Below, piece after piece: positions 21,068 through 31,670 of a stretch of 32,067 bases of DNA. Position numbers and translations under genes: made by a program. Under the pieces are notes generated by a model. The model was not told the origin of the DNA. It saw nothing but the letters and a program-made list of their open reading frames with translations, and ran no database searches. The number at the start of each line of letters is the position of its first letter. The stretch's first letter is position 1. This DNA comes from an uncultured Clostridia bacterium (GTDB lineage Bacteria; Bacillota; Clostridia; Christensenellales; Aristaeellaceae): contig CAMVHE010000031.1 in assembly GCA_947167215.1 (NCBI GenBank), forward strand, positions 1-32,067, written 5' to 3'.

Positions 21068-21994
21068 TTAAAGCTTCGCAAGTTCGACCGCAATCTTCGC
21101 AGCCGCCCTTGCATTATTAAAGGCCAGCTGAATATTGGTTTTCAGGCTGTCGCCGCCTGTTTCCTCCACAATGTGGGCAAGCATGAACGGGGTAATGTCC
21201 TTGCCCTTGACGCCTGCCGCATCTGCCTGTGCCAGAACTTTGTCAATCACGGCACTCATGGCATCAAAATCCATGGCATATTCTTCCGGCACCGGGTTTC
21301 CGATAAGAATGCCGCCGTTCAGACCCATTTCCCACTTTGCCTTGCAGATTTCCGCCACTTCAAGAGGCGTTGCGGCATTCACGTCCACGCCGAATCCGCT
21401 CTTGCGGCAGTAGAAAGCCGGGAAATCATCGGTACCCAGGCCAACCACCGGTACGCCCATGGTTTCGAGGTATTCGAGTGTTCTGCCAATATCCAGAATC
21501 ATCTTCGCCCCGGCACACACGACTGCCACGGAGGTATGCGCCAGTTCCTGGAGATCGGCGCTGATATCCATGGTCACCTCGCCGTGACGATGGACGCCGC
21601 CGATGCCGCCGGTGGCAAAAACCCGGATGCCTGCCATCTCTGCCAGGATCATGGTCGTTGCCACTGTGGTTGCTCCGGTCAGCTTCCTTGCTACGACGAT
21701 CGGAAGATCCCGCCGGCTCACCTTGCGGACGCCCTTCGCCTCGCACATGCGCTGCAGTTCTTCCTTCGTAAGACCTACCTTGAGCCGTCCGTCAATGACA
21801 GCCATGGTAGCAGGCACTGCCCCTTCTGCACGGATGATTTCCTCCACCCTGCCGGCAAATTCAAGGTTTTCCGGATACGGCATTCCATGGGAAAGAATGG
21901 TGCTTTCGAGGGCAACCACCGGCACTCCGCAGGCAATGGCGCTGCGAATTTCCGGAGTAATGTCGAGATATGGTTTCAAGCTTCTCAGATTCAT
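21068..21994 (-). CDS. psuG: Pseudouridine-5'-phosphate glycosidase
   Basis: A 308-residue enzyme that splits the C-C glycosidic bond of pseudouridine 5'-phosphate to uracil and ribose 5-phosphate. Family hallmarks are present: Glu30 in ALESTILSHGMPYP, Lys91, the FATGGIGGVHRH loop with Asp143 shortly after, and the Schiff-base lysine Lys164 in CAGAKMILDIG. Length is normal. Its start codon overlaps the psuK stop by 4 bp (TTATGA), giving coupled translation of the kinase and glycosidase that act in sequence. Confidence 0.95.
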   Translation of the reverse strand: MNLRSLKPYLDITPEIRSAIACGVPVVALESTILSHGMPYPENLEFAGRVEEIIRAEGAVPATMAVIDGRLKVGLTKEELQRMCEAKGVRKVSRRDLPIVVARKLTGATTVATTMILAEMAGIRVFATGGIGGVHRHGEVTMDISADLQELAHTSVAVVCAGAKMILDIGRTLEYLETMGVPVVGLGTDDFPAFYCRKSGFGVDVNAATPLEVAEICKAKWEMGLNGGILIGNPVPEEYAMDFDAMSAVIDKVLAQADAAGVKGKDITPFMLAHIVEETGGDSLKTNIQLAFNNARAAAKIAVELAKL

Positions 21995-22914
21995 AAGATA
22001 TACTCCTTTATCATGTCCTCTATGATCTGCGGGGTCATCCGCGCATTAATGGTATTCTCAGAGGCAATGGCAACGAGCCCGGCCGCCATGGCTGTCCATA
22101 CGGTTTCTTTCATGCTCATTCCCGTTTCGTCCGCATAGATGATTCCCGCCATGGCCGCATCCCCCGCTCCTGTCGCATTCACCATTCTGTCAAACGGCCT
22201 GCTGGCAGCAGTCATGGTTCCTTCCGGTCCGCAATACAGCATCCCTTTTTCGCCAAGGCTGACAAACACACGCCGGACACCGCTTTCCCTCAGGGCAGCG
22301 GCAGCCATCGTGATATGCGGAAGGGTGTCACAGGGCAGATTGGTCAGGGCTTCCAGTTCCATCCGGTTCGGCTTTACCGTATCAAATGCACCGATGCACG
22401 GAGCCAGTGCCCTCGCCCAGCTGGTAGATACCGGATCCAGATACAGCGGTACTGAAACCTTCTCTGCAAGGTATCGGACGACACAGAGCGGAAGGTTTCC
22501 ATCGCAGACAATACGGTCTGCACTTTGAATCGTATCCAGGGCACCATCAATAAAATCTTCTTTCAGGTCCCGGATCAGCTTCATATCGCTCATTGCCATG
22601 AGCATATCACCGGATTCATCCATCATGGAAACATAGGAGGTGGAACTTGCACCGGGAACAACCCGGATCGCGGAAGTATCCACCCCCGCCGTCCGGCAGC
22701 TTTCCAGGATAATCTGACCGGCGGCATCATCTCCGACAGCGGTTACCAGGGAGACCGGCAGCCCCAGCCTGGCAAGGTTTTCACAGATATTGCGGCATAC
22801 TCCTCCGGGCGACATGTGAAGTCTTCCGGGATTGGAATCCCGCATGATCAGCGGCCGTTCACTTTGGCAGTGCATATCGAGATTTGCTCCGCCAACTCCG
22901 ACTATCTTCCCCAT
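21991..22914 (-). CDS. psuK: Pseudouridine kinase, PfkB family
   Basis: A 307-residue PfkB/ribokinase-family kinase, assigned as pseudouridine kinase from its 4-bp overlap with psuG. Motifs: GGVCRNICENLARLG near 37-51 and the anion-hole/catalytic NATGAGDAAMAG with Asp252. I chose the ATG at 22914. An in-frame ATG at 22938 would leave only a few leader bases after the promoter at 22951-22979. The ribosome site for 22914 (GGGAG) is somewhat far, about 12 bases, so the start is less certain than the function. Product: pseudouridine 5'-phosphate for PsuG. Confidence 0.85.
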   Translation of the reverse strand: MGKIVGVGGANLDMHCQSERPLIMRDSNPGRLHMSPGGVCRNICENLARLGLPVSLVTAVGDDAAGQIILESCRTAGVDTSAIRVVPGASSTSYVSMMDESGDMLMAMSDMKLIRDLKEDFIDGALDTIQSADRIVCDGNLPLCVVRYLAEKVSVPLYLDPVSTSWARALAPCIGAFDTVKPNRMELEALTNLPCDTLPHITMAAAALRESGVRRVFVSLGEKGMLYCGPEGTMTAASRPFDRMVNATGAGDAAMAGIIYADETGMSMKETVWTAMAAGLVAIASENTINARMTPQIIEDMIKEYIL

Positions 22915-22950
22915 AACATCTGTCCGGCTCCCTTCCATGCAGTACCTATC

Positions 22951-22979
22951 ATTGTATTCTCTTTTTCTACGAAAATCAA
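22951..22979 (-). promoter_or_regulatory. Promoter of the psuK-psuG operon
   Basis: On the minus strand TTGATT (22974-22979), a 17-bp spacer, TACAAT (22951-22956). It stands back to back with the promoter at 23006-23034. Confidence 0.7.
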
Positions 22980-23005
22980 GCCTCAATCATTCCCGCTCAT
23001 TCCGG

Positions 23006-23066: not shown

Positions 23067-23843
23067 ATGTTTACAATCCGCGTTACACCCGGCGGGGAAC
23101 CCGATACGCTGGAAAAAGCCCTCGCCATGCTTCCGCCGGATGGTCCCGCGGCCATCCAGCTCACTGCGGGCGAATGGTTTGAGGCAGTCCGCATCACCCG
23201 TCCGCATACTACGATTGCCGGGCCTTCTCCGGACCATCCTTCCCAGGCTCAGCTGCTCTGGGACGATCCTTCAGTCCCCGTACTCTCCATCGGTGCCGAA
23301 GATGTCAGCCTTTCCGGGCTTACTGTCCAGAATACACTGACATCAGGCAATGGCACTGCTTGCGCAGTAATCTCCGGAGACCTTAAAGCCACTCATTGTG
23401 CTTTTCTCGGAAGCGAGGAAGTCCTTTGCATTTCCGGCCATGCCGCTTTCTCCGGCTGCCAGATTTCCGGCACGGCACATCTGCTGTCCGTCAGTGGAAT
23501 CTGCCGGGCAGAAAGCTGCACCTTTACCAGTCTGACGGAAAACCGCTTTCTCCTCTCTCTGTCCGGTCATGCACCCGAAGCGCTGCTTCGCTACTGTCGG
23601 TTCTATGCCCATGATCTTCCGGACAGAAGTGTGTCTATTGCCGACCTTTCCTCCTCCGGCGGTTCCCTTATCCTGCTGCAGAACGGGATTGACCGTCCCT
23701 ATCGCGGAGAATTCCGCTTTGCGGCGAACTCCTGCTGCTCGGTAAAACATTCCGGCAATTGGGGCCCCGGTGCCCAATGGCCGGAAGCAGAAAACCTGAT
23801 ACGACTGTCCGAAGCGGAAATACGAGAAATTGTTTCCTTATAA
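23067..23843 (+). CDS. Pectinesterase-like beta-helix protein, probably catalytically inactive
   Basis: A 258-residue protein without a signal peptide that follows the layout of carbohydrate esterase family 8 (pectin methylesterase): the VSLSGLTVQNT strand, a C-x-FLGS turn and a GT-x-x-L-L turn. Where the family has the catalytic GYQDTLY and GTVDFIFG motifs, this protein reads LGSEEVL (Glu117, Glu118) and GTAHLLS (His138). The upstream catalytic Gln seems to be Thr97, and no GRPW arginine motif is visible. It is also shorter than usual. It therefore looks like a cytoplasmic beta-helix that has lost esterase activity or gained another role. AAAGGA lies eight bases before the ATG. It is monocistronic between its own promoter and terminator. 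Confidence 0.7.
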   Translation: MFTIRVTPGGEPDTLEKALAMLPPDGPAAIQLTAGEWFEAVRITRPHTTIAGPSPDHPSQAQLLWDDPSVPVLSIGAEDVSLSGLTVQNTLTSGNGTACAVISGDLKATHCAFLGSEEVLCISGHAAFSGCQISGTAHLLSVSGICRAESCTFTSLTENRFLLSLSGHAPEALLRYCRFYAHDLPDRSVSIADLSSSGGSLILLQNGIDRPYRGEFRFAANSCCSVKHSGNWGPGAQWPEAENLIRLSEAEIREIVSL

Positions 23844-23849
23844 TATAAG

Positions 23850-23906
23850 AAGGCTGCAGGCCACAGAAAGCGCTACACTGCTTTTCGTGTCCCTGCGGCC
23901 TTTTTT
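23850..23906 (+). terminator. Terminator of the pectinesterase-like gene
   Basis: AAGGC-t-GCAGG pairs with CCTGC-g-GCCTT around a long, partly paired loop and is followed by TTTTTT (23901-23906). Confidence 0.8.
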
Positions 23907-24052
23907 GACAATCCTTTCTGTGTGATCCGGCAGATTATTTCTGTATGAAATTTCCCCAATTAAGACGGAAGCTGTGGAAAATATCCATTTTTCTTATCAT
24001 TGATTCAAAAAATCAGATTCCGACCCAAGGATTGAATTTTTTTCATTTGATA
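23907..24052. other. AT-rich intergenic region without a gene
   Basis: AT-rich spacer between the preceding terminator and the oppA promoter. It contains a short TGATT-caaaa-AATCA inverted repeat and A/T tracts that could bend DNA upstream of the promoter. No coding frame is supported. Confidence 0.6.
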
Positions 24053-24081
24053 TTGAAATATTTCTCAAACAGGAGTAAAAT
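24053..24081 (+). promoter_or_regulatory. Probable promoter of the oligopeptide transporter operon
   Basis: TTGAAA (24053-24058), a 17-bp spacer, TAAAAT (24076-24081), with an AT-rich upstream region. The leader to the oppA ATG would be about 75 nt. Confidence 0.65.
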
Positions 24082-24083
24082 AT

Positions 24084-24131
24084 ATGGGCAATTTACTCTA
24101 TCTTTTATGGTTTAACCATTTAAAGAGGTGA
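24084..24131 (+). CDS. Possible 15-codon leader peptide
   Basis: ATG at 24084 opens a 15-residue frame (MGNLLYLLWFNHLKR) closed by TGA at 24131, 31 bp before oppA. AGGAG lies eight bases upstream, but that site falls inside the proposed promoter spacer. The peptide could only be made if transcription starts further upstream. It may be chance. Confidence 0.15.
   Translation: MGNLLYLLWFNHLKR
24107..24119. promoter_or_regulatory. Palindrome in the oppA leader, candidate operator
   Basis: ATGGTT-T-AACCAT is a perfect palindrome about 20 bases past the expected transcription start. Its core TGGTTTAACCA fits TNGTTNAACNA, the same pattern as the palindrome at the GntR operon promoter (core 2746-2756). 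It would suit roadblock repression by a GntR-type protein. Confidence 0.4.
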
Positions 24132-24162
24132 GTAAAAAAAATTTAAAAGGAGGATTTCAATC

Positions 24163-26217
24163 ATGAAAAAATTCCTGTCACTGTTGCTGGTGCTGGCTAT
24201 GGCACTGGGCGTTGTGAGCGCGCTGGCAGAAAACGTCGTTTACGAGCGTGCTGATGACGAAGAAATCTACCTTGAAGTTCTCGGCGAGTACGATGAGCTT
24301 ATGCAGACTGCCAAGGCTGCAAAAACCGTCGACGAGCGCTTCGTTCTGGAAGCCCAGGCTGAGGCATATCTGCTTGACTCTGCCGTGTTTATTCCTACCA
24401 CCACCCAGGGCGGTGCCTACACCATCAGCCGTATTGCTCCCCGTACCGTGCCTTATGTGCAGTGGGGCAACGACGACGACCGCTGGCACTCCATGGTGAT
24501 CGCTGACAATTTCATCACCCCGGATGTCCGCGCAAAGCTGCTGGACGCCTGGGCAAAGGCTGTTGCCGGCGAGGGCGAATATGATGCTGCTGCCATCCTC
24601 CAGGAGAATGGATACGGCCTGGTGAAGGATTATCGCTACACCTTCGCCACCGCTCCTGTCACGCTGGACTGGCTGAACACCTCTTCTCAGTCTGATACCG
24701 AAATCACCGTAAACACGGTTGACGGTCTGGTTGAGTACAACAATCTCGGACAGATGCAGCCCAAGATTGCAAAGTCCTGGGAAGTTTCTGAAGACGGCCT
24801 GACCTACACCTTCCACCTCCGTGATGATGCCAAGTGGTTTACCTCTGAAGGCACCGAGTATGCTCCTGTAGTTGCTCAGGACTTCGTAGCAGGTTTCCAT
24901 CACATGCTCGACACCAAGGCTGGCCTTGAGTGGCTGGTTGAAGGCGTTGTTGCCGGTGCTTCCGAGTACCTGGCTGGCGGCGAATTCTCCGAGGTTGGCT
25001 ATGAAGCGATCGACGATCACACCCTGGCCATCACCCTCTGCGAGCCGACTTCCTATTTCATGACCATGCTGACCTACAGCTGCTTCCTGCCGATCTGCGA
25101 AGACTGGTATCTGAGCCACGGCGGACAGTTTGGCCTGGAAGAGTATCAGGAAGCTTTTGCTGATACCAACACCTATACCTTCGGTAAGAACACCGACGTT
25201 TCCTCTCAGGTTTACAGCGGACCGTTCCTGCTCCAGAAGCTGAATCCTGACTCTGAAATCGTTGTTGTCAAGAACCCCAACTACTATGATGCCGACATCG
25301 TCACCCTCGACTCCATCACCTGGATCTATGACAATGGCGAGAACATGGCACAGACCTATGCGGATACCGTTGACGGCGTCTATGCCGGCATCGGCCTGAC
25401 CGAAGCTTCCGGCACCCTTGCTCTTGCCAAGGCTGACGGCAACTTCGAAAAGTATGCCTATGTTTCTGACACCACTTCCACCACTTACTTCGGCGGCCTC
25501 AACGTGAACCGCGGCACCTATGCTCTTGCCAGCGGCGCAGTGGCTTCCTCCAAGACTGAGCAGCAGAAGATCGATACCCATACTGCTCTCATGAACAAGA
25601 ATTTCCGTAAAGCTTTCCTCCACGCCTTTGACCGTGCCACCTATAACGCAGTCAGCCGTGGCGAAGATCTGAAGCTGGCCAACCTGCGGAATATGTACAC
25701 GCATCCTGAGTTCGTCCAGCTGGAAAATGATACTACCGACGCAGAAGGACATACCTTCGCTGCCGGCACCTTCTATGGCGAGCTCGTGCAGTATTATCTC
25801 GACCAGAAGAATGCTCAGATCAAGGTTGCTGACGCTCAGGACGGCTGGTACAATGCTGATCTGGCAAAGGCTTACCTCGAGACCGCTAAGGAAGAGCTTG
25901 GCGACACCGTAACCTGGCCTATCACCATGGACGTTGTTTACTACTCTGCCTCTGCTGCCAATACCGCTCAGGCTCAGGCTTGCAAGCAGGTTATCGAGAA
26001 CACCCTCGGTGCTGAGAATGTTGTTGTGAACCTGGTAGAAGCCACCACTTCCGAAGACTTCTATGCTTCCGGATATCGTGCCACCACCGGTTTTGCAGGC
26101 AACTTTGACCTGTTCTACGGCTCTGGCTGGGGTCCTGACTTCGGCGATCCTTGCACCTACCTCGACACCTTTGGAGTCAACGGCTATATGCTGAAGGTTA
26201 TCGGTATCGACTATTAA
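24163..26217 (+). CDS. oppA: Oligopeptide-binding protein (AmiA/OppA type) with circularly permuted order
   Basis: A 684-residue exported binding protein of SBP family 5, nearest in style to streptococcal AmiA. The signal peptide ends VVSALA (cleavage ~22) and has no lipobox cysteine. Residues ~35-135 (LGEYDELM, DERFVLEAQAEAYLLDS, IPTTTQGGAYTISRIAPRTV, LLDAWAKAV) resemble the segment normally at the C-terminus of AmiA. After a linker, ~160 onward gives the usual N-lobe (TLDWLNTSSQSDTE, DGLVEYNNLG, WEVSEDGLTYTFHLR) and the rest of the domain. The protein ends at GWGPDFGDPCTYLDTF plus about 18 residues, where a normal protein would continue into the segment now at the front. Total length is normal. 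AAAGGAGG precedes the ATG. It is rich in GCT/TCT codons relative to its neighbours, which suggests high expression. Confidence 0.85.
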   Translation: MKKFLSLLLVLAMALGVVSALAENVVYERADDEEIYLEVLGEYDELMQTAKAAKTVDERFVLEAQAEAYLLDSAVFIPTTTQGGAYTISRIAPRTVPYVQWGNDDDRWHSMVIADNFITPDVRAKLLDAWAKAVAGEGEYDAAAILQENGYGLVKDYRYTFATAPVTLDWLNTSSQSDTEITVNTVDGLVEYNNLGQMQPKIAKSWEVSEDGLTYTFHLRDDAKWFTSEGTEYAPVVAQDFVAGFHHMLDTKAGLEWLVEGVVAGASEYLAGGEFSEVGYEAIDDHTLAITLCEPTSYFMTMLTYSCFLPICEDWYLSHGGQFGLEEYQEAFADTNTYTFGKNTDVSSQVYSGPFLLQKLNPDSEIVVVKNPNYYDADIVTLDSITWIYDNGENMAQTYADTVDGVYAGIGLTEASGTLALAKADGNFEKYAYVSDTTSTTYFGGLNVNRGTYALASGAVASSKTEQQKIDTHTALMNKNFRKAFLHAFDRATYNAVSRGEDLKLANLRNMYTHPEFVQLENDTTDAEGHTFAAGTFYGELVQYYLDQKNAQIKVADAQDGWYNADLAKAYLETAKEELGDTVTWPITMDVVYYSASAANTAQAQACKQVIENTLGAENVVVNLVEATTSEDFYASGYRATTGFAGNFDLFYGSGWGPDFGDPCTYLDTFGVNGYMLKVIGIDY

Positions 26218-26241
26218 TCGAATGCGAGCACGCTGACCATC

Positions 26242-26276
26242 ACAAGGAGGGGAATCCTTCCCCTCCTTGTTTCTTT
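26242..26276 (+). terminator. Strong hairpin between oppA and oppB, likely partial terminator
   Basis: A perfect 13-bp stem (26242-26254 with 26258-26270), a 3-nt loop, then TTCTTT. It lies 24 bp past the oppA stop, and oppB follows without a visible promoter. Partial read-through would keep binding protein in excess of the membrane complex. Confidence 0.75.
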
Positions 26277-26323
26277 ACAGAGTAAATCCTCTGTCCCAAA
26301 TCTCAAATGAAGTTGGTGTCATT

Positions 26324-27904
26324 ATGAAACGATACATGGCCAGACGTATCCTGTTCTCCGTGTTTTCCTTGCTCGTGGTCATTTCTGTGGTCATGTTGCT
26401 GGTGTATACGCTGATCAACAGAAACGTCATCTTTCAGATGGATGACGTCTGGAATAAGAAAACCCTCAATGACCGCATCGTTTATGAATATGTTCAGTAC
26501 CAGAAGTACGGCTATCTCAATTATGCGGATTATTCCAATTTCCTTAAAACAAAGTATTCTTCCCTTTTAGGAGACGGTTATACCAAAGATGCCGGATATA
26601 AAACAGACAAGGACGCAATTCAGGATGAGAATACTTATCTTGACAACGCCTCTGTGAAGGAGTTCATCTCCACTTACGAAGCGAAAGGATATACCATCAA
26701 TTACATTCAGCCTGCCCGTTCTGCTTCCGGCAAGGTGCGCAATGGAGGTAACGGCTACCTTCTTGCTGTGATGGAGCGCAGTGTTTTCCTGCGTCTATTT
26801 GATTACATTACCCATCTTTTTACCGTTGAAACTACCAACGACGTTCAGGACCCTGCCCTGACGGAGCGTTATATTCGCGTGGAGAAGGATCCTTACAGCG
26901 GACTGTTTGCTGTCGTAGGTTCCGGTACCACCCATAAATACCTTCTGTATTTCAGTTCCAGATTCCCCTTTATTCATCAGAATTTCATCCATCTGAATCT
27001 TGGCACTTCCTTCACCAAGTATCGCGGTCAGGAAATGACAGAAGTTATCAACCGGCCCACCGGTGAACAGGTTCAGATTGAAACTCAGTATCCTCTGCAG
27101 ATTGGCACTGACGAAAAAGTCATGACCGCTCTGGATTTCCATTCTCTGACCTACAATGCAACCCCCAGCAAGAAGGATCTGACACAGTATCCGGATAACT
27201 ATACTACAGCATCCTACCGCTTCGGCGGATTGTCCATGATCGAGAACTCCTTCGTAATCGGTCTGATTGCCACTGCTCTTGCGTATCTCATCGGACTGCC
27301 GCTGGGTATTCTCATGGCGCGCTACAAGGACGGATTCTTTGACAAGCTGGGCAATATGTACATCATCTTTATCATGTCCGTCCCGTCCCTGGCCTATATC
27401 TTTATCTTTGCCTCCATTGGTACTTCCCTTTTCCATCTTCCGTACAAATTTGCCAATGCGGAAGTCAAGATTCTGGCCTATATCCTGCCGATCATTTCCC
27501 TGTCCCTGCCTTCCGTAGGCAGCCTCATGAAATGGATGCGCAGATACATGATCGACCAGATGAACTCGGACTACGTTAAATTTGCCCGTGCAGAAGGCTT
27601 ATCCGAAGGTGAGATTTTCAGTCAGCATATCAGCCGCAATGCCATGATCTATCTGGTCCATGGCATTCCTGCCAATATTCTCGGCTGCCTTACCGGTGCC
27701 ATCATCACGGAACGTGTATACGCGGTTCCCGGTGTCGGCAACCTGCTGACAGTGGCAATCAATGGTCATGACAATGGCATCATTGTGGGATGTACCGTTT
27801 TCTACACCACCCTTTCCATTCTTTCCCTGATCCTGGGTGACCTTCTGCTGGCCGCTTATGATCCCCGTATTTCTCTCTCATCCAGCAAAGGAGGTGGAAG
27901 ATAA
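26324..27904 (+). CDS. oppB: Oligopeptide ABC transporter permease, AmiC/OppB type
   Basis: A 526-residue permease. One membrane helix at ~9-30 is followed by a large extracytoplasmic domain (~31-305), then about five helices with the EAA loop beginning ARAEGLSEGEI at 421. The large external domain with GSGTTHKYLLYFSSRFPFIHQNF is the hallmark of streptococcal AmiC and is absent from plain OppB of ~310 residues. I chose the ATG at 26324, where the protein opens MKRYMARR; a TTG at 26267 lies within the preceding hairpin. The ribosome site (TTGGTG) is weak, consistent with low permease output. The stop overlaps the next start by one base. Confidence 0.92.
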   Translation: MKRYMARRILFSVFSLLVVISVVMLLVYTLINRNVIFQMDDVWNKKTLNDRIVYEYVQYQKYGYLNYADYSNFLKTKYSSLLGDGYTKDAGYKTDKDAIQDENTYLDNASVKEFISTYEAKGYTINYIQPARSASGKVRNGGNGYLLAVMERSVFLRLFDYITHLFTVETTNDVQDPALTERYIRVEKDPYSGLFAVVGSGTTHKYLLYFSSRFPFIHQNFIHLNLGTSFTKYRGQEMTEVINRPTGEQVQIETQYPLQIGTDEKVMTALDFHSLTYNATPSKKDLTQYPDNYTTASYRFGGLSMIENSFVIGLIATALAYLIGLPLGILMARYKDGFFDKLGNMYIIFIMSVPSLAYIFIFASIGTSLFHLPYKFANAEVKILAYILPIISLSLPSVGSLMKWMRRYMIDQMNSDYVKFARAEGLSEGEIFSQHISRNAMIYLVHGIPANILGCLTGAIITERVYAVPGVGNLLTVAINGHDNGIIVGCTVFYTTLSILSLILGDLLLAAYDPRISLSSSKGGGR

Positions 27905-28872
27905 TGAACAGCGATGCAAAGCTGCAGGATAAGGATCTTTTCACATTTATTGATAGCGATTCTATCCAGTCTGAAAAAATCATCGCACCGCGCTATTCTT
28001 ACTGGCGCTCTGTCTTCCGTGTCTTTTTCAAGAAAAGGATCAACATTGTTCTCATTGTTTTCTTTATTATTCTGGTCCTTTCCTCCCTGCTGTTTCCCAT
28101 TTTCTTCCCATATCTTCCCTATGAGAATGTTACCGACGCCAAGTCCTACAATCTGAGCCCCTCGGCAGCAATGGATTACTTCAACAATGGCGCTTTCGAC
28201 CTGAAATGGATCTTCGGCACCGGCCAGCAGGGCAACTCCATTTTCTACGGCATCATGGCATCTGCAGGAACCTCTCTCAAATTGGCGGTTATCTGCGCTG
28301 CCATCAACATGACCATCGGCATCCTACTGGGTGCTGTGTGGGGATATTCAAAGACGTTTGATCAGATCATGCTGGTCATCTACAATATCATTGCAAACGT
28401 CCCTTATATTCTCCTCATTTCCGTGCTGGTTTACGTCATTGGTGCCGGCTTCTGGAGCTTCATCTTCGCTCTGTGCGTCACCGGCTGGCTGAGCATCGCC
28501 TACTTCTTCCGGACCCAGGTGCTCATCATCCGCGACCGTGAGTATTCCCTCGCTTCCCGCTGTCTGGGAACTCCCATCCCCCGCATGATCAGCCGGAATA
28601 TTCTTCCTTTCCTGACTTCTGTCACCGTTACGCTGCTTGCAACGGAACTGCCTTCCTATATCTCCATGGAGGTTTTCCTGTCCTATATCGGCGTTGGCAT
28701 GAGTGCAGAAGTTCCTTCCCTGGGCCGTATGATCCAGGAAGCACAGTCTTCCTTCATGGTCTATCCCTGGGCTTTCTGGCCGCCCGTTGTCATTGCATCT
28801 GCAATAACCATTATTCTTTATGTTCTGGGACAGAATCTGGCCGACGCCTCTGACCCGCGTACCCACATGTAA
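27904..28872 (+). CDS. oppC: Oligopeptide ABC transporter permease, AmiD/OppC type
   Basis: A 322-residue partner permease. It has a cytoplasmic N-terminal tail of ~45 residues, a first helix at ~46-69, then an OppC-type domain with GTGQQGNSIFYGIMASAGTS and the coupling loop ASRCLGTPIPRMISRNILP. The start codon shares one base with the oppB stop (TAATG), with AAAGGAGGTGG inside the end of oppB, so translation is coupled. It forms the second half of the peptide channel. Confidence 0.93.
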   Translation: MNSDAKLQDKDLFTFIDSDSIQSEKIIAPRYSYWRSVFRVFFKKRINIVLIVFFIILVLSSLLFPIFFPYLPYENVTDAKSYNLSPSAAMDYFNNGAFDLKWIFGTGQQGNSIFYGIMASAGTSLKLAVICAAINMTIGILLGAVWGYSKTFDQIMLVIYNIIANVPYILLISVLVYVIGAGFWSFIFALCVTGWLSIAYFFRTQVLIIRDREYSLASRCLGTPIPRMISRNILPFLTSVTVTLLATELPSYISMEVFLSYIGVGMSAEVPSLGRMIQEAQSSFMVYPWAFWPPVVIASAITIILYVLGQNLADASDPRTHM

Positions 28873-28883
28873 GGAGGTGCAAA

Positions 28884-30713
28884 ATGGAACAAAATCAGAT
28901 GAATGCCCTCCAGACACCTGCTCCGTCAGACCGCAAGGTACTTCTTTCCCTGCGGAATGTCAGCGTTAAGTTCAACGTTCGCGGCCGTATTCTGACTGCA
29001 ATCCGAAACGTTTCTCTGGACATTTATGAGAATGAATCCATCGCTATCGTCGGTGAATCCGGTTCCGGCAAATCCGTGCTGACCAAGACCTTTGCCGGCA
29101 TGCTGGACTCCAATGGCTTTATTTCCGAAGGCAGCATCATCTTTTCCGATGACGAGCTTTCTGAAACCAACGCTACGCTCACGCCGTACCATCGCCGCAT
29201 GGTCAAATCTTTTGCGGAAACGCTGAACCAGTATTCCGTTCTGGAACGCGGTGCTGAGGAATACCGTCAGATTCTGGTACTGGAAGCCCGAAAAAAACAT
29301 GAAGCTTCTTTATCAGAGGAAGAGGAAGAAGCCTTCAAGAACCGTCTGCAGGAAATGAATGGTACCATCATTGAGACCAGCAACTACATGCAGACGCTGG
29401 ACCGTCATAATGCCGAAGATATGGCGGAATACAGGCAGTGCGAGGCCAAGATCGAAAACCTCCGGGCAGAGATCAAGAAAACCGAACAGGAGCGGGATGC
29501 CCTGATTGCAAAGCATTCTGCCGCCTACAAGCAGAACAGCAAGCTTCAGGCAGATGAAGCGGCCGAGCTTGAACGCCTCAAAAAACTGCGCGAAGAAAAA
29601 ATGGCAACGGAAGAAAAGCCCGGCAATCCGCATGGGCTTTCGGATGAAATCATTGAGCGCAATCGCATTCTTGCCTATGAAGTCCTGCTTTCCATTGCCA
29701 GATATCCACGTCTTTCCCAGGTCAAGTTCCTCCGCATATTGAAAAAAGCTTTCCGGGAAGCCATGATAGTCGGCGATGACCTGATGAACAAGGGAGTCCG
29801 CAATCGTATCTTCCAGACCTGCGTTTTCTATGTGGAGTTCCGTTCTCTGGACGAAGCTGCCGGCATCGTACACGGTTATGCGGTTATTGACTGCGCACAC
29901 GTTAAGTACACCAAAGACTGGCAGCAGATTCGCGGCAAGCGCATTGCCACTGTCTTCCAGGACCCCATGACCAGTCTGAACCCGGTCATTACGATCGGCA
30001 AACAGATCATGAATGTCATCCTGAAGCACCAGAAGTGCTCTCAGCATGAAGCACGCAAGCGCACCATTGACATCATGGGCAAGGTGGGCATCCCCGATCC
30101 GGAATCCCGTTTTGATGACTATCCTTTCCAGTATTCCGGCGGCATGCGTCAGCGTATCGTCATCGCCATTGCCCTTTCCTGCCAGCCGAAGATCCTCATC
30201 TGCGACGAGCCCACGACTGCACTGGATGTGACCATTCAGGCTCAGATTCTGCAGCTCATCAAGGACCTTCAGAAGGATCTTGGTTTTACTACCGTTTATA
30301 TCACCCATGACCTGGGCGTGGTTGCCAATGTTGCCGAGCGTGTTGCCGTGCTCTATGCCGGCCAGATCGTTGAACTGGGCATGGTAGATGAAATCTTCTA
30401 TGATCCCCGTCATCCGTACACCTGGGCACTGCTCTCTTCCCTGCCCCAGCTGACAGAGAAAAATACCGAGCTGTTCTCGATTCCGGGAACTCCGCCTTCT
30501 CTGTACAACAAAATTACCGGTGATGCCTTTGCAATGCGCAGTTCCTACGCCATGGCCATCGACATGAAGGAAGAACCTCCGATGTTCAAAGTCACGGATA
30601 CCCATTATGCGAAGACCTGGCTGCTGGATCCCAGGGCGCCGAAGGTGGATCCGCCGAAAGGCATTCAGAATTTGCATGAAAAAATGGTCAGAATCTATGG
30701 CGAGGAAGATTAA
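28884..30713 (+). CDS. oppD: Oligopeptide ABC transporter ATPase, AmiE/OppD type, with ~250-residue insertion
   Basis: A 609-residue ATPase. Walker A GESGSGKS at 57-64, Q-loop Gln359 (VFQDPMTSLNP), signature YSGGMRQR at 417-424, Walker B ILICDEP at 437-443 and H-loop His475 are intact. Normal AmiE proteins are ~355 residues. The excess lies between GSIIFSDDELS (~93) and KDWQQIRG (~344). The insert has a charged helical stretch at ~125-245 likely to form a coiled coil (IENLRAEIKKTEQERD, ELERLKKLREEK) and a helical part at ~255-335. The C-terminal peptide-transporter tail (SIPGTPPSLY, GDAFAMRSSYAM) lacks the four cysteines of many OppD proteins, as in streptococcal AmiE. AAGGAGG precedes the ATG. 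Confidence 0.92.
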   Translation: MEQNQMNALQTPAPSDRKVLLSLRNVSVKFNVRGRILTAIRNVSLDIYENESIAIVGESGSGKSVLTKTFAGMLDSNGFISEGSIIFSDDELSETNATLTPYHRRMVKSFAETLNQYSVLERGAEEYRQILVLEARKKHEASLSEEEEEAFKNRLQEMNGTIIETSNYMQTLDRHNAEDMAEYRQCEAKIENLRAEIKKTEQERDALIAKHSAAYKQNSKLQADEAAELERLKKLREEKMATEEKPGNPHGLSDEIIERNRILAYEVLLSIARYPRLSQVKFLRILKKAFREAMIVGDDLMNKGVRNRIFQTCVFYVEFRSLDEAAGIVHGYAVIDCAHVKYTKDWQQIRGKRIATVFQDPMTSLNPVITIGKQIMNVILKHQKCSQHEARKRTIDIMGKVGIPDPESRFDDYPFQYSGGMRQRIVIAIALSCQPKILICDEPTTALDVTIQAQILQLIKDLQKDLGFTTVYITHDLGVVANVAERVAVLYAGQIVELGMVDEIFYDPRHPYTWALLSSLPQLTEKNTELFSIPGTPPSLYNKITGDAFAMRSSYAMAIDMKEEPPMFKVTDTHYAKTWLLDPRAPKVDPPKGIQNLHEKMVRIYGEED

Positions 30714-30725
30714 AGGAGGGAAAGC

Positions 30726-31670
30726 ATGAACAACGAAAATCGGGAAGTATTGCTTTCCATTCAGAACCTGGATGTTGTCTTTAAGCAGGGCCGTAACAGT
30801 TTCAAAGCGGTTTCCGACGTCAGCTTTGATATCTACAAGGGCGAAACTCTCTCTCTGGTTGGAGAGTCCGGCTCCGGCAAGACCACGGTCGGCCGTGCTA
30901 TCGTCCGCATCAACCCCTGCTCCAATGGTGCCATCTATTTCAAGGGAGAGAAAATCTCCGGCAAGCTTTCACGTGCCAAGGACCGCGAAGTCATCCGGAA
31001 AATTCAGATGGTTTTCCAGGACCCTGCGGCATCCCTTAACGAACGCGCAACCATTGAATACATCATTTCTGAAGGTCTTTACAATTTCCATCTTTACAAG
31101 GATGAAAAAGATCGGATACGCAAAGTGGAAGAAGCCATTAACTCCGTAGGACTTCTGCCCGAACACCTCACCCGTTACCCCCATGAGTTTTCCGGCGGCC
31201 AGCGCCAGCGTGTCGGCCTTGCCCGTTCCATTATCATGGAACCGGAGCTTATCATTGCCGATGAACCCATTTCCGCACTGGATGTTTCCATCCGTGCGCA
31301 GGTGCTGAATCTGCTCAAGAAATTCCAGGTGGAGCGTGGTCTTACCTATCTGTTTATTGCCCACGACCTTTCCATCGTCCGGTTTATCAGTGACCGTATC
31401 GTGGTTATTTACAAGGGCCGCATCATGGAGATTGCCGAAACCGAGGAGCTCTTCAAGTATCCGCTCCATCCTTATACGCATTCTCTCATGTCCGCTATTC
31501 CCATTCCGGATCCCATTCTGGAAAAGAAGAAAAAGCTCTTTATCTATACTCCCAAGGAATACGGCGAAAACGAAAAGCCTGAATTGACAGATATCGGCAA
31601 CGGGCATATGGTCTTCGGTTCTCCGGAGGAAATTGAAGCTTATCGAAAGCTGCGTTTCAAAGACGCTTAA
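30726..31670 (+). CDS. oppF: Oligopeptide ABC transporter ATPase, AmiF/OppF type
   Basis: A 314-residue ATPase of normal length, with Walker A GESGSGKT at 46-53, Q-loop Gln98 in [14 protein letters not shown], signature FSGGQRQR at 155-162, Walker B ELIIADEP at 174-181 and the FIAHDLS H-loop. It ends with the AmiF-type tail [10 protein letters not shown]. Unlike its partner it carries no insertion. It starts 12 bp after oppD with AAAGGAGGG and closes the operon, followed by a terminator. With OppD it forms the heterodimer that powers import. Confidence 0.95.

Follow-up and report, generated by a model that had tools for sequence, protein, structure and literature searches.

Evidence for a circularly permuted Ami/Opp-type binding protein at the head of an amiCDEF operon in an uncultured Clostridia bacterium

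Introduction

Can the receptor of a peptide importer carry the end of its chain at the beginning and still be the same receptor? This question is raised by a gene on contig CAMVHE010000031.1 of an uncultured Clostridia bacterium (assembly GCA_947167215.1), the 32,067 nucleotides of which are referred to here as the window. An initial annotation, made from the letters alone, proposed that the piece that ends normal AmiA proteins stands in this gene directly after the signal peptide, and that the arrangement is a permutation rather than a truncation. The natural standards for comparison are AmiA, AliB, AliC and AliD of the pneumococcal Ami system (structures 8a42, 8qlj, 8qlh and 8qlc; PMC11192437), with which the protein has its body fold in common. 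OppA and DppA belong to the same Pfam family (SBP_bac_5, PF00496) and are of normal order; OppA is without the ~30-residue C-terminal helix of the Ali proteins (PMC11192437). In this study, we examined the order of the segments, their distribution among relatives, the predicted fold and the operon that the gene heads. Our analyses indicate that the gene very probably encodes a circularly permuted Ami/Opp-type binding protein, in which the last fifth of AmiA follows the signal peptide, the chain ends where that piece would normally start, the usual two-lobed trap is predicted to form, and peptides are likely handed to the AmiCDEF transporter of the same operon.

Results

The gene and its parts, all on the plus strand, are as follows.

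24163..26217, plus strand: permuted AmiA-type peptide-binding protein gene, a single open frame of 684 aa plus stop
24163..24228, plus strand: likely signal peptide, residues 1-22 (SALA/EN, no lipobox Cys), by eye from the translation
24244..24582, plus strand: displaced C-terminal piece, residues 28-140 (phmmer to AmiA 522-627 and AliB 515-609, tail profile and junction alignment)
24568..24621, plus strand: new linker, residues 136-153, bridging the former C-end and the former mature N-end; both permuted subclades conserve it
24622..26214, plus strand: body, residues 154-684, the mature N-terminal four fifths of AmiA (phmmer and structure alignment)
26128..26139, plus strand: WGPD motif, residues 656-659, aligned as the counterpart of AliB W500/D503, with its role taken from PMC11192437
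26182..26214, plus strand: new C-end GYMLKVIGIDY, at a constant spacing from WGPD throughout the family (junction alignment)

When the protein was compared with solved structures by phmmer, residues 154-670 matched positions 13-497 of the AmiA chain (8a42) with 288.4 bits and residues 38-139 matched positions 522-627 with 26.0 bits (i-Evalue 2.6e-5). AliB (8qlj) gave the reversed order too, with residues 40-133 falling on 515-609. The N-terminal segment thus does align to the C-terminal segment of AmiA, and the limits first proposed for the two segments, 30-135 and 160-684, were correct to within a few residues. By homology, with the names of the structural elements taken from PMC11192437, the displaced piece comprises the end of domain III, the last strands of domain I and a helix equivalent to the C-terminal alpha19 of the Ali proteins. 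This Ami/Ali-type terminal helix is absent at the C-terminus, and its likely equivalent is residues 120-134, before the body. SBP_bac_5 was the sole Pfam match above cut-off (residues 198-672, 154.7 bits vs 32.4), and no NCBIfam model reached its cut-off for the 684-aa protein. Since Pfam reports only the body and the NCBIfam models stay below cut-off, the rearrangement is invisible to standard annotation. As had been claimed, no residual C-terminal coding precedes the next gene: the 106 bp that separate the permuted gene from amiC (ATG at 26324) were searched, and no leftover tail frame was found.

To score the order of the segments, the mature protein was rotated cyclically in steps of 5 residues, and each rotation was compared with a profile of 21 normal-order relatives. 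The native order gave a best single match of 328.0 bits over profile positions 13-479, and rotations starting at residues 144-153 gave up to 388.3 bits over positions 13-593, which is nearly the whole profile. Six further permuted proteins (P0012, P0027, P0089, P0134, P0150 and P0184) had their rotation optimum at the same joint between tail and body. Three normal-order controls were each excluded from their own profile; two peaked at rotation 0, and the third was level, with 601.8 bits in native order and 601.9 when rotated by its loose end. The construct with the true tail rotated into place was reported by HMMER as a split match, with a best single domain of 224.4 bits and a whole-sequence score of 394.6, compared with 335.6 for the body alone; constructs with shuffled tails had a best single domain of at most 335.4 bits.

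The position of the new C-end is equally regular. Counted from the W of W-x-P-D, the chain runs on for 29 or 30 residues in 235 of the 236 permuted proteins that bear the motif (241 were examined and 5 were without it), and 135-155 residues in normal proteins (131 motif-bearing, 135 examined). Given the rotation optimum at the joint in P0001 and the six others, together with this constant distance, the reversed order lies far beyond chance. At the new C-end, the consensus GYM.K.IG(L/I)(F/Y/DY) aligns with GDMLNYSGINY of L012, the nearest normal-order relative, where the normal chain continues, so the chain does stop where the moved piece should begin. Between the former C-end (...AW.KAV.GE) and the former mature start runs the linker G.Y...YL..KGYTL..Y, and the fact that both permuted subclades share this linker points to one ancestral joint. 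Two segments are reversed, nothing is left over, and rotation gives one full-length match, as in a circular permutation.

The same order recurs in a large family. A search with the window protein yielded 1,445 matches, the best 120 of which had 67-100% identity and included the window's own sequence (P0002), and a search with the diverged relatives L010 and L011 (45 and 42% identical to the window protein) yielded 5,867, of which the best 120 were likewise considered. All 240 of the 240 matches listed from both searches were permuted; none was of normal order and none had two tails. When L012 was the query, the best 120 of 3,995 matches were all of normal order (120/120). Among one-per-species genomes, 80 of the 80 best loci, out of 453, were permuted; the titles of these records name Clostridia, Lachnospiraceae, Oscillospiraceae, Erysipelotrichaceae, Christensenellaceae, Spirochaetales, Sphaerochaetaceae, Treponemataceae and others, and most are metagenome-assembled. 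Of 396 genomes of the order, 18 had a match at E <= 1e-60, and the span of the query classed 13 of these as permuted (the window's own included) and 5 as normal; of 391 genomes of the class, 6 had a match, 5 permuted (own included) and 1 normal. These genome sets overlap in part, as illustrated by L061 and L109, which have identical bodies.

Several members depart from the common form. L042:1904-3961 (DUQK01000028.1) is a permuted gene broken into two frames by a stop. Five proteins, P0175, P0180 and P0202 (951-1072 aa) and P0132 and P0148 (840-844 aa), have a long spacer after the signal peptide and ahead of the moved tail; these spacers are acidic, of the TEAPTEAETEEV type, or coiled, as if the tail stood on a stalk. 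We considered whether these longest matches (840-1072 aa) were duplications and rejected this, as it is such a spacer in a permuted protein that accounts for their length.

A maximum-likelihood tree was built from bodies only (72 rows, 557 columns). All 48 permuted rows formed one clade, with 99 bootstrap and 88 SH-aLRT support, and the clade was present in 99% of 200 bootstrap trees; none of 500 label shuffles was as low as the observed clustering of permuted rows. The permuted clade is sister to an L012-like normal clade of 7 rows, followed by 14 other normal rows, a rooting that is less sure than the clade itself because the program gave a long-branch warning for the outgroup and L024. Judged from sequence, then, the window protein is not a one-off: it belongs to a large family whose sampled members fall in one clade. 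Six records with spirochaete titles (L056, L049, L053, L067, L083 and L101) are permuted operons placed among Bacillota on the body tree, and their placements suggest either transfer between phyla or mislabelled bins.

A likely route to the permuted order would start from a tandem copy of the gene within the operon; the two copies would fuse in frame, and the first body and the last tail would be lost. No intermediate, with one tail in front of the body and another behind it, turned up among the 241 and 120 proteins or in the further loci that were screened. The moved tail could instead derive from a different paralogue, a possibility also considered for the moved part of the sugar-binding protein TpMglB-2 (PMC4990184). 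By tail profile score, the permuted tail is closer to tails of the L013/L015 type (38-49 bits) than to that of L012 (29 bits), as a paralogous origin would have it. By mean pairwise identity, however, the L012-like normals are the closest normal group to each of the two permuted subclades, in tail (32.6 and 29.5%) and in body (35.6 and 34.8%) alike, and between the two permuted subclades A and B the identity is 41.8% for the tail and 45.3% for the body, although the differences are slight and the tail offers few positions. That tail and body diverge in step agrees with, and does not prove, descent of the tail from the same gene, and we regard a paralogous source as unlikely.

The AlphaFold2 model of the full-length monomer is confident (pLDDT 94.7, pTM 0.90), including residues 31-140, where pLDDT is 95-98. 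Residues 153-684 of the model superpose on AmiA 33-534 over 493 aligned residues with an rmsd of 1.9 A, and the four best structure matches are AmiA/Ali proteins. The Foldseek/VIA alignments are sequential, so that a rotated match cannot show in them, and it is the body that they cover. The last residue of the model, 684, falls on AmiA 534, AliB 529 and AliD 527; domain III of AliD spans 297-582 (PMC11192437), and AliD 527 is thus inside it. The usual three-domain, two-lobed fold is predicted to be kept, with the tail presumably in the place of the AmiA tail, to judge from the confidence values of the model. A different arrangement would be a domain-swapped dimer, in which the tail of one chain completes another. 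AliC, a relative, was crystallised as a domain-swapped dimer, though there whole lobes swap (PMC11192437). The single-chain model, for which a monomer was what was modelled, is confident through the tail, and we therefore hold a swapped dimer to be quite improbable and retain the monomeric, self-completed fold.

A truncated AmiA with an unrelated N-terminal domain that merely resembles the lost tail would also yield two segments. The similarity of the tail alone to AmiA is modest (26 bits), and the tail folded alone (130 residues, 64 sequences) reached a pTM of only 0.50, had no strand of 3 or more residues, and gave no match at E <= 0.001 in a fold search of the PDB, with no AmiA/Opp protein among the 50 matches listed. 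Strands 76-78 and 86-89 of the tail are present in the full model, and their loss in the lone tail is expected if the tail completes the sheets of the body; because the tail strands need the body, the uninformative fold of the lone tail does not count against its origin in AmiA. Against an unrelated domain, the tail profile of the permuted family detects the C-terminal piece in 120 of the 120 normal-order proteins listed, the full profile is matched, with a gain of about 60 bits, once the chain is rotated, and the tail stays collinear along its length in the junction alignment. Coincidental resemblance is thus very improbable, and the original call of permutation over truncation is borne out by the moved tail, the completed profile and the permuted homologues. 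Finally, although the window's genome is a draft (204 contigs, 7.14% contamination), an assembly artefact that misjoined two gene copies or a repeat has next to no probability, since hundreds of homologues have the same order, including all of those listed from both searches and at the best loci, with the gene present in the one-contig 3.4 Mb genome G414 and the two-contig 3.3 Mb genome G213, and the position of the C-end is constant to within a residue in nearly every motif-bearing member.

The permuted gene heads a complete amiCDEF operon in the window, and the features downstream of it are as follows.

26242..26270, plus strand: hairpin of 13 pairs with T-rich sequence after it, in the spacer upstream of amiC (terminator scan)
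26324..27904, plus strand: amiC-type permease with a large extracellular part, ~526 aa (MKRYMARR start)
27904..28872, plus strand: amiD-type permease, 322 aa
28884..30713, plus strand: amiE-type ATPase, 609 aa, with a ~240-residue insert
29172..29897, plus strand: AmiE insert, aa about 97-338, between Walker A (57-64) and the Q-loop (356)
30726..31670, plus strand: amiF-type ATPase, 314 aa

A scan of 23840-26400 found 4 terminator-like sites where shuffled sequence had 2.1 on average, so that the strong hairpin is no more than a suggestive terminator candidate; possibly it acts as a partial terminator, with binding protein made in excess of transporter. One promoter-like site, at 24053-24081, was found where 1.9 are expected, which is within chance. 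Elsewhere in the window, at 21068-22986 on the minus strand, lies an adjacent gene pair that we take to resemble a pseudouridine glycosidase and a kinase.

At 76 of the 80 best loci, amiC lies downstream of the permuted gene. Of the remaining four, three (L048, L090 and L098) break off inside the gene or a short way past it, and the other is L099, where amiC, D, E and F were sought in the 6 kb after the permuted gene with no match. L099:109-2691 is an orphan permuted member, an 861-residue frame with a longer N-terminal part. The AmiE of these operons is remodelled: 278-375 residues stand between Walker A and the Q-loop in all 78 of the permuted operons that were readable, and 46 residues in all 10 normal operons with readable motifs. 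The permuted loci number 92, of which 14 are unreadable (12 are cut before the end of amiE, and the others are L099 and L140, whose 582-residue AmiE frame has no readable motif pair). The other 11 normal loci comprise 10 complete AmiE frames of 348-371 residues and 1 that is cut, and the insert is in none of the 20 complete normal-order AmiE frames. The insert is coiled-coil-like; no Pfam family scored above its cut-off in it, and PDB sequences matched it at E 0.43 at best. Since each trait probably arose once, the association of permutation and insert reflects shared descent and is not proof of functional coupling. The large ectodomain of AmiC is not special to the permuted set, as seven normal operons have AmiC frames of 498-528 residues.

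The residues that hold the ligand are conserved. AliB W500 and D503 hold the N-terminus of the peptide (PMC11192437), and W656, P658 and D659 are present in 122 of 122 aligned permuted sequences. With this W-x-P-D grip conserved, peptide binding by lobe 2 should be kept. Homology and operon position make peptide the likely ligand and AmiCDEF the likely partner.

Discussion

Like the pneumococcal Ami proteins, the permuted protein has the W-x-P-D grip and a matching tail with a long terminal helix, and both systems include amiCDEF partners with a large-ectodomain AmiC. The permuted protein differs in being tail-first, in having its new ends in domain III by homology, and in the conserved linker between its old ends, and its operon differs in the ~240-residue insert of AmiE. 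The nearest precedent for the kind of rearrangement is TpMglB-2 (Tp0684) of Treponema (PMC4990184), a natural circularly permuted glucose-binding protein for which a 'Cluster Bc' was proposed and which has relatives in treponemes and in gut Gram-positives. Both are permuted binding proteins of ABC importers, both occur in spirochaetes and gut Gram-positives, and in both the signal end has been relocated on the fold. As described there, however, TpMglB-2 is a type I, cluster B, sugar-binding protein, whereas the permuted protein belongs to SBP_bac_5 and does not have the fold by which Cluster Bc is defined. In TpMglB-2, strands from the N-terminus were relocated to the C-end and the hinge gained a fourth crossing; in the window protein, a piece from the C-terminus was relocated to the N-end, which would call for no further crossing between the lobes.

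The initial annotation held such a permutation to be undescribed in peptide-binding proteins. This stands in so far as no permuted peptide-binding protein was found in the literature that we searched (the matches listed, by titles and abstract openings, among open-licence PMC papers, which do not include preprints), and in PMC10326533 and PMC7701253, 'circularly permuted' is said of other proteins. It is qualified by the sugar-binding TpMglB-2, which had already been published. The kind of permutation is thus known, and it is for the peptide-binding (cluster C) case, the size of the family, the single clade and the operon that no report was found.

The location of the cut has possible consequences for how the receptor is held. 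By homology, the cut would lie in lobe 2, with both new ends in domain III, and the old C-end (the equivalent of AliD alpha19, in lobe 1) would run through a linker of ~18 residues to the old N-end in domain I; by the domain limits of AliD, the lobe crossings would remain two. The N-terminus, secreted or anchored, would then hang on lobe 2, which grips the N-terminus of the peptide, and not on lobe 1, and a lipid anchor, where a lipobox exists, would likewise leave from lobe 2. In the Ami model, ECD2 of AmiC touches lobe 1 only and AmiD touches lobe 2 (PMC11192437). By analogy with that model, a tether on lobe 2 could alter the geometry of docking. A search of the translation of the window protein for a lipobox Cys found none, which weakens this argument for the window protein itself. 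At least two other SBP_bac_5-like proteins of the same genome, L002 and L004, also have signal peptides with no evident lipobox cysteine. A lipobox-like motif is carried by 100 of 241 permuted proteins and by 63 of 120 normal ones; as both sets have it, the permutation is not tied to lipid anchoring and is not explained by it alone.

Published cases of natural circular permutation in binding proteins are rare, the one that we found being that of a sugar-binding protein, and standard annotation hides the present one, as Pfam and NCBI models see the body only at most. It is conceivable, and we offer it tentatively, that the importer was rebuilt once, in that an ancestral Ami operon would have gained both a permuted receptor tethered by lobe 2 and the AmiE insert, the two being coupled in docking and firing, before spreading among gut Firmicutes and spirochaetes. 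As the enlarged AmiE ATPase, whose insert has no counterpart in the libraries searched, occurs in the same operons as the permuted receptor, the lineage amounts to a natural experiment in importer design.
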